In this document: piece after piece, positions 8,091 through 22,673 of the stretch
Layout of the letters: each line of letters starts with the position of its first letter
How positions within the stretch are numbered: the first letter of the stretch is position 1
DNA from: a virus
Reading direction: 5' to 3' (one strand)
Virus record (IMG/VR): IMGVR_UViG_3300050129_000012
Span: 1-22,698 of that record
DNA: 22,698 nucleotides
The notes under the pieces: model-generated
The model's input: the letters and a program-made list of their open reading frames with translations, nothing else
The model's database searches: none
What the model was told of the DNA's origin: nothing
Position numbers and translations under genes: made by a program

Positions 8091-10475
8091 ATGGCCAACT
8101 CACAGACCGCAATCATGCGGCCGCTTGCGGGGCTTGCTCGTGCGTTTGCGGCCATGCAGAGCAGGTTGTATCAACCGCCGCCGGTCACGATTGCGGGAGT
8201 AAACGAACAGAACTGGCCGAGCGCATTACAGCCGGTGCAGCCGGTAGGCCCTCCAGGCAGTCAGCCGCTGCTATGGTCGTTCTGGCAAGGCGTCAATCAA
8301 AATATTACCCCGCGGCCCGATGCGGAGCTAAGCTTTGGTCAACTCCGCGGGCTTGCAACGTATCCGCTGGCACGCATCTGCATTGAGAACATCAAGGACC
8401 AGGTCTCATCGCTGAAGTGGACTTACCAACTTCGGGAGACGCCGGGCGAATCGCTGAAGGATCGACGCAAGCGCCAGGAGAACGACAAAAACATCCCGAT
8501 GCTGGCCGAGTTCTTCGCGTTCCCGGACGGCGATACACCGTGGTCCGATTGGGTGCGCCCGCTGCTCGAGGATTTGCTGGTCATCGATGCGGGTTGCATC
8601 TTGGTTCAGCGAACGCTATCCGGCAAGGTCGTCAAGCTTCGCGTACCAGACGGCGCCGACATTTTGCGGCTGATCGACGACCAGGGCTATACGCCAGCAC
8701 CGCCATCACCGGCCTACACGCAGCTGTGGGAAGGCATCCCGCGTGTACTGCTGACGACAGACCAGCTTGTCTACCGGCCGCGAAATATCGTGCGCCGCGG
8801 CACGGTCGCATCCCAGCTTTACGGCTTCGGCCCGACGGAGGGCATTAGAACCGAACTCGAATGCGGCATCGAGCGCCTGCGCTACGTTCTGGCCTACTAC
8901 ACGGATGGCTCTGTACCCGGCATCGTGCAGATGGTGCCGCCGGGCGTCAGCGTGGACGCAATCCTCGAAGGCATGCAGTGGATGAACTCGGACCTCGCTG
9001 GCCAGCTTGCCAAGCGCCGGCAATGGCGCAACGTGCAGAGCTTTTCGGGCAATGTCGCCGAAGGGCCGAAGGACCAAGTCCACCAACTCAAGGAGCCCGT
9101 TCTCGCGGACGTTTACGACGACCTGCACATCCGCAAGGTAGCCTTCGCGTACGGGGCATCGGCACAGCGGTTGCTCCGCATGATGAACCGGGCCTCCGCG
9201 ATGGCCGGCCAGGAGGCAGCCCAAGAAGAAGGCACCATCCCCTGGGTGCAATGGCTCAAGGCGACGATCGACATCGTCATCCAGCGCAAGATGGGCTTGC
9301 CGGGTTACGAGGCGATTCCGGACACGGCGGTTGAACTCGATCCCACGAAGCAGATGGAAATCGATACTGGCTATGTGAAGTCCGGCGTCTTCACTATCAA
9401 CGAGCGGCGGGATATGCGTGGCGCCGAACCGCGGCCCGAGCCCGAAGCAAACGGCCTGATGGTCATCACGGCAACCGGCGCCATTCCGTTGGCTGGCGCA
9501 ATCGAGAGAACAGCCGAGCAGCACACGGCGGACATTCAGCCAGCGCCGACGCCGGTCATCTCGCCACCAGGCGGAGGTGGAGCGGCACCGAAGAAGCCGG
9601 CAGCTAAACCGGCCGCAAAAGCCGATGACGAAAGCGTAAAAAAAAAAGTAGCTGAAGCCCCGGCCATCAGCCCGGTGCCGCACACGCCGTCTTTGGCGCT
9701 GGCGAAGACCAAGCTTTACTCGCACGTCGCCCACTTCCTATTTGAGGCCGGGAAGAAAGCCGCAACGGTCAAGGTTGAGAAGCGGCTGCGCAAGGCAACC
9801 AACCCAACACCCGACGACATCGACCAGCTCGTCACCGCAGCACTCGGCGCGGTCAACTGGGAAGAACTGGTCGGCCTGACGGAGCCGGAGATTGAAGCCG
9901 CTGCGATCGAGGGCGCGAGAGTCGGGCTGGCCGAGGAAGGCATCGAGATCACGCCGGGCGTTATCCCGACGACGGAAGTCCGGGCGCTGATCAGCGAGGT
10001 GAACGCAACGGCCCGTGACTGGGCACAGCAACGCGCCGCCGAAATGGTGGGGATGAAGTATGTCGACGGCAAACTCGCTGAGAATCCAAACGCCAAGTGG
10101 CGTATTGATTTGGCAACCCGTTCGATGCTCCAACGCGACATTACTGCGGCGTTTGCAGGCAACACGCCACTCAGTGATTTGGCAGCAACGATTAGAGCAT
10201 CCGGTGCGTTTGACCAAGCCCGAGCCGATCTGATCGCGACGACCGAAGTCAGCAACGCCCAGATGCGAGGCAACGCTGAGGCTTGGCTGAAGAACGGCAA
10301 CGTCCAGGAATTCAAGTGGCAGCTGAGCGCGGACCACGTTTGCTGCGATGAATGCGACATCATGGCGATCAACAGCCCGTACCCGGTGGGGAAGGTCTTA
10401 GAGTTGCTGGACCAGCGCCACCCGCGTTGTCAATGCGCGGTGATCGGCACCAAGATTAAAGGCGTCGATTTGTGA
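8091..10475 (+). CDS. Portal protein fused to a MuF-like minor head domain
   Basis: A 794-residue fusion. Residues about 75-470 look like a phage portal (SFGQLRGLATYPLARICIENI, VYRPRN, YGFGPTEGIRTELE, a dodecameric ring through which DNA enters). A Pro/Ala/Lys/Gly-rich linker follows (about 488-545). The last 120 or so residues match the phage Mu gpF/minor head family: IATTEVSNAQMRGNAEAW, then CCDECD and HPRCQC. MuF proteins are usually separate genes just downstream of portal. The linker contains a run of ten A that could cause frame slippage to a portal-only product. The ATG at 8091 has GGGAG at 8078-8082. The next gene overlaps by GTGA. Confidence 0.85.
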   Translation: MANSQTAIMRPLAGLARAFAAMQSRLYQPPPVTIAGVNEQNWPSALQPVQPVGPPGSQPLLWSFWQGVNQNITPRPDAELSFGQLRGLATYPLARICIENIKDQVSSLKWTYQLRETPGESLKDRRKRQENDKNIPMLAEFFAFPDGDTPWSDWVRPLLEDLLVIDAGCILVQRTLSGKVVKLRVPDGADILRLIDDQGYTPAPPSPAYTQLWEGIPRVLLTTDQLVYRPRNIVRRGTVASQLYGFGPTEGIRTELECGIERLRYVLAYYTDGSVPGIVQMVPPGVSVDAILEGMQWMNSDLAGQLAKRRQWRNVQSFSGNVAEGPKDQVHQLKEPVLADVYDDLHIRKVAFAYGASAQRLLRMMNRASAMAGQEAAQEEGTIPWVQWLKATIDIVIQRKMGLPGYEAIPDTAVELDPTKQMEIDTGYVKSGVFTINERRDMRGAEPRPEPEANGLMVITATGAIPLAGAIERTAEQHTADIQPAPTPVISPPGGGGAAPKKPAAKPAAKADDESVKKKVAEAPAISPVPHTPSLALAKTKLYSHVAHFLFEAGKKAATVKVEKRLRKATNPTPDDIDQLVTAALGAVNWEELVGLTEPEIEAAAIEGARVGLAEEGIEITPGVIPTTEVRALISEVNATARDWAQQRAAEMVGMKYVDGKLAENPNAKWRIDLATRSMLQRDITAAFAGNTPLSDLAATIRASGAFDQARADLIATTEVSNAQMRGNAEAWLKNGNVQEFKWQLSADHVCCDECDIMAINSPYPVGKVLELLDQRHPRCQCAVIGTKIKGVDL
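9638..9647 (+). other. A10 slippage site in the portal-MuF linker
   Basis: Ten consecutive A cover the end of codon 516 (GTA) and three Lys AAA codons (517-519). A -1 shift leads to AGT AGC TGA with the stop at 9653-9655; a +1 shift leads to AAG TAG with the stop at 9649-9651. Either event, by ribosome or RNA polymerase slippage, would make a portal without the MuF domain. The run stands out in a GC-rich gene. Slippage is inferred. Confidence 0.45.
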
Positions 10476-10729
10476 AGGGTGAGCAGTGCTGGGTCCCTGA
10501 TTGCAAGGTCTGCGCAATAGCGCAGGAGTATCGCTTCTCGGCCAAGGACATCCACCAAATCGCGCTGATTTGCCTCGGCATGAACCGGAAGCAAATCCGC
10601 GCTGTTACCGCCGAGCTGTCCGACATCAGCCGGGAGCGCACGGCAGATATACGGAAGAAGCTGGGCGTTCGCACGGCGCATGGCATTCGGGCCTGGGCGC
10701 GCGAGCGTGGCTTGGCGACACACACATGA
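10472..10729 (+). CDS. Small HTH protein (GerE/LuxR-like) with N-terminal Cys cluster
   Basis: An 85-residue protein from a GTG that overlaps the portal stop (GTGA). It starts with three cysteines (C6, C11, C14) that may bind zinc. The middle to end, ALICLGMNRKQIRAV, then SRERTADIRKKLGVRT, has the layout of a GerE/LuxR C-terminal helix-turn-helix (recognition-helix region ending KLGVR), with one helix somewhat unusual. No receiver or ligand-binding domain is attached. It lies back to back with a second GerE-like gene and overlaps it by ATGA. A DNA-binding role is likely; its target is unknown. Confidence 0.6.
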   Translation: MKGEQCWVPDCKVCAIAQEYRFSAKDIHQIALICLGMNRKQIRAVTAELSDISRERTADIRKKLGVRTAHGIRAWARERGLATHT

Positions 10730-10974
10730 CCCCAACCCCAACCGGCGAGCGAGTTCTCGGTAAATTAACGGCCCGCCAACGCGAAGCGCTCACATGGCTC
10801 TGCAGCGGCCTAACCAACAAGCAGATCGCGGAAAAGATGGGCATCGGCGAACAGCCGGTTAAGAACTACATGCGCGTAATCCTGCTTATGGCGGGCATGA
10901 CCAACCGGCTGGAATTAATGATCTTTGCGTTTCGCCACGGCATGGTTGAATGTCCGTGCGGCTCCGATGATTGA
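10726..10974 (+). CDS. Solitary LuxR/GerE-type HTH protein, 82 residues
   Basis: Start at ATG 10726 (overlap ATGA). Residues about 14-56 are a clear GerE domain: LTARQREALTWLCSGLTNKQ, IAEKMGIGEQPVKNYM, the order seen in LuxR family DNA-binding domains (LTxRExEVLxLxAxGxxNKEIA, then the recognition helix). There is no N-terminal sensor domain. The C-terminus ends in a CPC motif. It probably binds DNA and may regulate late genes; that is inference. Tandem with the gene at 10472 in the middle of the head operon. Confidence 0.75.
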   Translation: MTPTPTGERVLGKLTARQREALTWLCSGLTNKQIAEKMGIGEQPVKNYMRVILLMAGMTNRLELMIFAFRHGMVECPCGSDD

Positions 10975-22116: not shown

Positions 22117-22136
22117 CGCCGTTGGAGCGGCATCGC

Positions 22137-22673
22137 ATGACCCTGATTCAGCAGGATTCTCAGCCCCCACTCCCATTCTATCGCTTCATCAAACTAACCA
22201 AAGGCCAGTACGCGCTGGTCGATGAGAAAGACTATAAGCGCGTTGCCCGACACAAGTGGTGTGCGCAATGGGCACCCCGCAAAAACGGCGGTGGCGTTTA
22301 CTATGCCGTCCGCCATGTAAGGTTGGTACCCGGTGGGAAGCAACACCGGATCAGCATGCACCGCTTCATCATGAACGCACCGGACGGGCTCGACGTAGAC
22401 CACATCCGGCCCATGGACACCCTGGACAATCGCCGCTCTAATCTCCGCTTGGCCACAGAATCGCAGAACGCAATGAACCGCAGAATTCAGTCCAATAGCG
22501 AGACTGGCTGTAAGGGTGTTTCGCGCACCGCCAAAAGCGGCAACTACAGAGCGCGCATAACCATAAACGGCGAGGTGATTTGTCTCGGCACCCGTAAAAC
22601 GAAGAAAGCGGCGTCCGCGCTTTACTGGGAGGCCGCTCTCAAGTATCACGGCGAGTTCGCAAGACTCGCCTAA
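22137..22673 (+). CDS. HNH homing endonuclease with an AP2-like DNA-binding domain
   Basis: A 178-residue protein; the ATG at 22137 has GGAG at 22124-22127. N-terminal half: KLTKGQYALVDEKDYKRV, RHKWCAQW, then MHRFIMNAPDGLDVDHI and LDNRRSNLRLAT, QNAMNRR, the HNH core of phage homing nucleases (HxxW, DHI, NxRxxNLR, N). C-terminal half: GCKGVSR, YRARITINGEVICLGTRKT, an AP2-like beta domain that recognises DNA. It cuts specific DNA and promotes its own spread. It is free-standing and not inside an intron here. Its first part overlaps no other gene. Confidence 0.88.
   Translation: MTLIQQDSQPPLPFYRFIKLTKGQYALVDEKDYKRVARHKWCAQWAPRKNGGGVYYAVRHVRLVPGGKQHRISMHRFIMNAPDGLDVDHIRPMDTLDNRRSNLRLATESQNAMNRRIQSNSETGCKGVSRTAKSGNYRARITINGEVICLGTRKTKKAASALYWEAALKYHGEFARLA

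Follow-up and report, generated by a model that had tools for sequence, protein, structure and literature searches.

A ten-adenine run at the portal-MuF border of a phage gene as a predicted slippage site, and its counterparts among relatives

A run of ten adenines at the border between the portal and MuF domains of a phage gene is very probably a programmed slippage site giving both a portal-only and a portal-MuF protein, a reading for which there are as yet no mRNA or protein data. The run (A10, positions 9638-9647, forward strand) lies in the window, by which we mean the whole 22.7-kb virus record analysed here (22,698 nucleotides), within a forward-strand open reading frame (8091-10475) that stays in frame through A10 and encodes a portal-MuF fusion of 794 amino acids. 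With less assurance, we lean towards a wider proposal in which RNA-polymerase slippage and ribosomal frameshifting serve as interchangeable engines and have repeatedly replaced each other at this place, giving portal rings with a set fraction of MuF.

The product of 8091-10475 belongs to the portal family, which both its sequence family and its fold fit. The portal domain (about residues 70-469; 8298-9497) is recognised by PHROG 2662 (E 1.6e-49 over residues 71-785), by a Pfam PF04860 match that remains under its cut-off, and by Foldseek, which matches the fold to the solved portals of phage 812, HK97 and T5 with E values down to 1e-12. In an AlphaFold2 model based on a 30-sequence alignment, pLDDT is below 50 across residues 470-521 (9498-9653), a predicted disordered linker, and confident folding resumes at residue 522, where the MuF region begins (residues 522-794; 9654-10472). 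Assignment of this region relies on the AlphaFold2 model, on PHROG 115 (E 1.2e-9) and on a weak Pfam match (Phage_Mu_F, PF04233; 10131-10364, 22.1 bits against a curated cut-off of 29.6). According to the model, the A10 cut falls at the portal/MuF domain border, at the end of the disordered linker, which is where the preliminary description had placed it. Since the linker is disordered up to 521 and folding starts at 522, a product ending just after the run would comprise the complete portal and linker. Immediately 3′ of the MuF gene lie two small open reading frames (10472-10974) with a LuxR-type helix-turn-helix-like sequence.

The run reads GTA AAA AAA AAA GTA, and its placement at Lys codons 517-519 of a GC-rich gene, reported previously, proved exact. 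With a GC content of 61%, the gene encodes lysine by AAG 28 times and by AAA 9 times. The stops previously given for the two alternative frames were also confirmed, and both are met no more than 8 nt past A10. One added A (or a -1 shift) would yield a 521-residue portal-only product ending in VKKKSS at TGA 9653-9655, and loss of one A (or a +1 shift) a 519-residue one ending in VKKK at TAG 9649-9651. When the gene was shuffled among synonymous codons, A10 arose anywhere in it in 28 of 20,000 shuffles, and the sole other A run of at least eight in the window, A8 at 372-379, is outside any recognised gene. Another record contains an almost identical contig (L001; 8381 of 8382 nt over the overlap), which carries the same A10 and an intact open reading frame. 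The run fulfils the homopolymer criterion of at least nine A or T inside a coding region, and it also contains an A_AAA_AAA heptamer in the zero frame. No SD-like stimulator is present 5′ of 9638 in the window, and the 60 nt 3′ of A10 fold at -21.9 kcal/mol, a value for a GC-rich stretch that has no shuffle comparison for a single sequence.

Conservation of the run in homologous fusions had been proposed as a check, and roughly one in three independent relatives keeps it at the portal-MuF border. Eight scans of viral contigs yielded about 500 loci, portal and MuF profiles defined 192 discovery loci with both domains, and dropping portals at least 90% identical left 116 representatives. These comprise 39 with A9 or A10, 27 with an in-register heptamer, 39 fused without a signal and 11 split without a signal. 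Across the 33 kb of their linkers, A runs of six, seven, eight, nine and ten number 14, 10, 0, 21 and 18, with none longer than ten, and no A run of at least eight occurs in the 235 kb of the same genes outside the linker. The 39 runs of nine or ten in one and their absence from the other bear out the earlier judgement that chance is less likely, with an enrichment at the portal-MuF linker of more than 100-fold. The loci minus linkers (809 kb) contain one A9 and two T9. Synonymous shuffling of the 88 fused genes gave an expectation of 1.9 genes with A9 or longer and a maximum of 5 across 200 shuffles, against 23 observed. The runs typically lie about 190-220 nt 5′ of the MuF profile start. They occupy the three codon registers 14, 13 and 12 times and encode peptides as varied as VKKKV, SKKN, QKKT and EKKK; use of all three registers indicates that nucleotides are conserved and lysines are not.

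The pattern recurred in a new sample from three more scans, seeded mostly with signal-less relatives and restricted to members less than 90% identical to all earlier ones. Its 22 representatives hold six A9 runs in 5.7 kb of linker, three in fused genes and three with MuF in the -1 frame, and the 137 kb examined elsewhere contain no further A or T run of at least eight. None of the six runs has an SD; the heptamer class had too few members there for a retest. In the 116-representative set, fused A9/A10 members also have a +1 stop close to the run (median 5 nt), which was not reproduced in the three fused members of the new sample and is therefore given no weight. Additional members were also sought in 369 bacterial genomes, where only the one already known turned up.

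Two gene layouts, and switching between them, are observed among the 39 A9/A10 members. In-frame fusions account for 23, and in the 16 split members the portal frame stops soon after the run and MuF is in the -1 frame without exception. From these frames, the -1-split genes appear to require insertion of a single base to reach MuF. An independent MuF start was considered for them and rejected, as most lack an SD-bearing start codon just 3′ of the run. In L269 and L296, and in L380 from the new sample, a stop overlapping the first As of the run closes the MuF frame, so this frame opens only within the run. On the portal tree, layout changes at least eight times among A9/A10 members, and the pairs L191/L221, L039/L037, L023/L296 and L025/L017 differ in layout with the run kept in both partners. 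The portals of L025 and L017 are 97% identical, with a single base difference 3′ of the run; in the sister pairs it is bases adjoining the run that change the frame, and the run stays at nine or ten. Slippage near one half would give a similar product mix from either layout, as a review has said of dnaX (PMC5009743). Run-less split genes mostly resemble ordinary overlapping or neighbouring genes, unlike the split members with A9 or A10. In a further locus, a single TAA (L015:4525-4527) separates portal and MuF in the same frame, representing either readthrough or ordinary neighbours.

A run interrupted by AAG codons in homologous fusions had been put forward as a refutation. Neither interruption nor absence of the run refutes the proposal, since many such relatives carry a ribosomal -1 cassette instead. 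Near the A9/A10 spot, 27 of the 116 representatives have an in-register -1 heptamer (A_AAA_AAA, A_AAA_AAG, G_GGA_AAA/G or C_CCA_AAA/G). Linkers without A runs of eight or more have 31 heptamers in register 0 versus 13 and 5 in the others, the majority of the 13 arising as overlaps in A7G, and A7 is always in register (9 of 9). Shuffles of the 88 fused genes give about 12 heptamers where 28 are seen, and part of the matches is by this estimate attributable to chance. The 27 members were picked blind to flanking sequence, and whether stimulators flank the sites was observed directly. An SD-like sequence lies 6-18 nt 5′ of the heptamer in 17 of 27, often as AGGAGG 13-14 nt before it, compared with 1 of 39 A9/A10 members (p 5e-8 for heptamer versus A9/A10) and 6 of 39 fused signal-less members. 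Similarly, the median downstream fold z is -2.35 in the heptamer class versus 0.02 in the A9/A10 class (p 2e-6) and 0.15 in fused signal-less members. Four A7 members share one 11-pair hairpin stem in which 91% of pairs are kept and five pairs show two-sided changes, and slid controls keep 36-63% of pairs; each of the four was selected for folding this way, and the stem is thus supporting, not independent, evidence. As a class, heptamer, SD and predicted hairpin make up a dnaX-type ribosomal -1 cassette, to the extent that sequence features can identify one. The heptamer members are fused in 26 cases and split in one. The 715-residue portal of a prophage in the well-studied Neisseria gonorrhoeae (L343:2402-4549), matching in length that given for NGO0496 (PMC1931599), has an in-register G_GGA_AAG at its portal-MuF border, and a Herbaspirillum phage-plasmid portal-MuF gene has A_AAA_AAA. 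In about a third of relatives (39 of 116) the fusion comes without any recognisable signal, so a dual product is either not universal or has other sources.

Our proposed mechanism starts with RNA polymerase on A10, which would generate an mRNA population mixed in length. Messages with the run unchanged or altered by a multiple of three would encode the 794-residue portal-MuF fusion, and those with one extra A (the expected main class) or another change that is not a multiple of three would stop immediately and give a portal plus linker of 519-521 residues. Portal rings could then be assembled from plain and MuF-bearing subunits, which would keep MuF sub-stoichiometric at a genetically fixed level and anchor it at the portal vertex. 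Among relatives, the two products would be reached by three routes: an A9/A10 run in a fusion that continues in frame 0, an A9/A10 run followed by MuF in the -1 frame, and the dnaX-like ribosomal cassette. Slippage itself is an inference, as are the choice of RNA polymerase over the ribosome as its main engine here and any role in the virion. The preliminary description had suggested two products in a set ratio, so that each dodecamer would bear just a few MuF domains. Comparison among relatives supports the two products, and the low number per dodecamer has not been shown; dnaX-like slippage would give a ratio nearer 1:1, and the actual ratio is unmeasured. That a limited MuF number per portal ring is the purpose is an inference from SPP1, in which each capsid holds 1-2 copies of gp7 (PMC5576092).

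The main alternative is that ribosomes, and not RNA polymerase, make both products by a -1 frameshift on the A_AAA_AAA inside A10, which we regard as unlikely but still worth entertaining. The heptamer is indeed in register in the window, the same gene family has ribosomal cassettes, and split members are invariably -1. In addition, ribosomes can slide on AAA runs (PMC4363877), which leaves the engine unsettled. Set against this, A9/A10 members lack the SD (1 of 39) and the hairpin (z about 0) of their ribosomal relatives; their runs are nine or ten long though seven would suffice for a ribosome, with length eight missing; their register is free where that of A7 is fixed; and free change of the MuF frame is confined to them. 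The lack of stimulators, free register, missing eight and free layout switching fit polymerase slippage better than a ribosomal shift. Bacterial slippage is reported to be efficient at nine A or T, and the RNA:DNA hybrid spans 9-10 bp (PMC5009743); the threshold of nine seen here would agree with both. Among transcriptional changes in A/T runs, insertions predominate; most add a single base, and they become more frequent the longer the run (PMC5574713). On this analysis, RNA polymerase would be the likelier engine in A9/A10 members including the window, and the ribosome in the cassette-bearing relatives.

Two further readings are much weaker. One holds that A10 merely encodes a linker rich in lysine, or is a homopolymer that arose by chance, and that the fusion is the sole product. 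The fused representatives without a recognised signal do mean that fusion alone can work, yet this account is improbable given the enrichment at one site, the free codon register, the avoidance of AAG within the run of a gene that prefers it, and the split relatives, which require a shift to make MuF. Marginally less probable still is phase variation, in which changes in DNA tract length would make the fusion present in some virions and absent from others. Tracts of A9 or A10 are mutable, and the tree shows fused layouts alternating with split ones, but a DNA contingency tract, which we tried as an explanation and rejected, would be expected to show varied lengths and all frames. Lengths are instead only nine or ten, never eight nor eleven and above, the out-of-frame members are 16 of 16 in -1 and never +1, and the frame shifts in sister pairs come from bases beside the run. 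Assembly or sequencing error, to which homopolymers in metagenome contigs are prone, can practically be discounted as the source of the run or the frames, because the site recurs across many samples, the window's run is repeated in a second contig, and named records carry the site (A9 in Thermoanaerobacterium phage THSA-485A, A7 in Herbaspirillum).

The slippage proposed for the window's A10 has its closest parallel in Thermus thermophilus dnaX, where a nine-base run, with a stop in each alternative frame, gives the two products tau and gamma (PMC5009743). Both have 9-10 A in a fused reading frame and nearby stops in both alternative frames, and the full and truncated products predicted here would likewise share an N-terminus (PMC5009743). 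Unlike Thermus dnaX, the present gene is a phage structural gene, its mRNA heterogeneity and product ratio are unmeasured, and some relatives keep MuF in -1. The heptamer relatives resemble E. coli dnaX (SD, A_AAA_AAG, stem-loop) in having an SD 13-14 nt 5′, an in-register heptamer, a hairpin beginning about 5-8 nt 3′ and a predicted shifted product that is the shorter of the two. E. coli dnaX differs in that the window has no SD and the A9/A10 class no hairpin excess, and the genes are unrelated. Virion genes yielding two lengths in a set ratio are also known from lambda G/GT, the T3/T7 capsid, phage A2, PSA and SPP1 17.1/17.1* (PMC5009743, PMC6316719), but the genes concerned encode tail chaperones, tail tubes or capsids, and their shifts are ribosomal. 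Portal and MuF act together in the portal-MuF fusions of Arthrobacter phage Sonali and Microbacterium phage clusters EA and EB, and in SPP1 as gp6 with gp7 (PMC5576092, PMC7302621); these are described as plain fusions or separate genes, with no shift site reported. The literature searched contained no account of a shift site between portal and MuF, and PRFect mentions MuF-like genes just in passing.

If the proposal is true, it explains how MuF is kept under twelve copies in phages with fused portal-MuF genes, as it is in separate-gene phages such as SPP1, and it brings a virion gene into the small set of cases in which transcriptional slippage is put to productive use. It would also supply a natural family for comparing polymerase slippage with ribosomal frameshifting, swapped repeatedly at one site. 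Many portal-MuF genes annotated as encoding one protein would then be mis-described, as would some apparently frame-broken metagenome portals.

Several minor observations concern the window and its relatives. At 2086-2849 the C-terminal part of a tyrosine recombinase lies beside the C-terminal part of a DNA methylase, and the two resemble truncated remnants; an HNH/AP2-like endonuclease frame (22122-22673) stands at the end of the structural cluster. In L002 and L003, whose portals are 63% identical to that of the window, the portal frame ends at about residue 505 with no MuF found adjacent, and MuF has been lost or relocated in these close relatives, an observation that weighs against the slippage proposal. 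Three other loci (L036:5103-5808, L034:2052-3251 and L064) have an inserted segment after the A9/A10 run and a MuF N-terminal stretch. In L034 and L036 this segment bears 2H-phosphoesterase-like motifs (PHCTVLWGF, PHVCVAYL), a putative identity.
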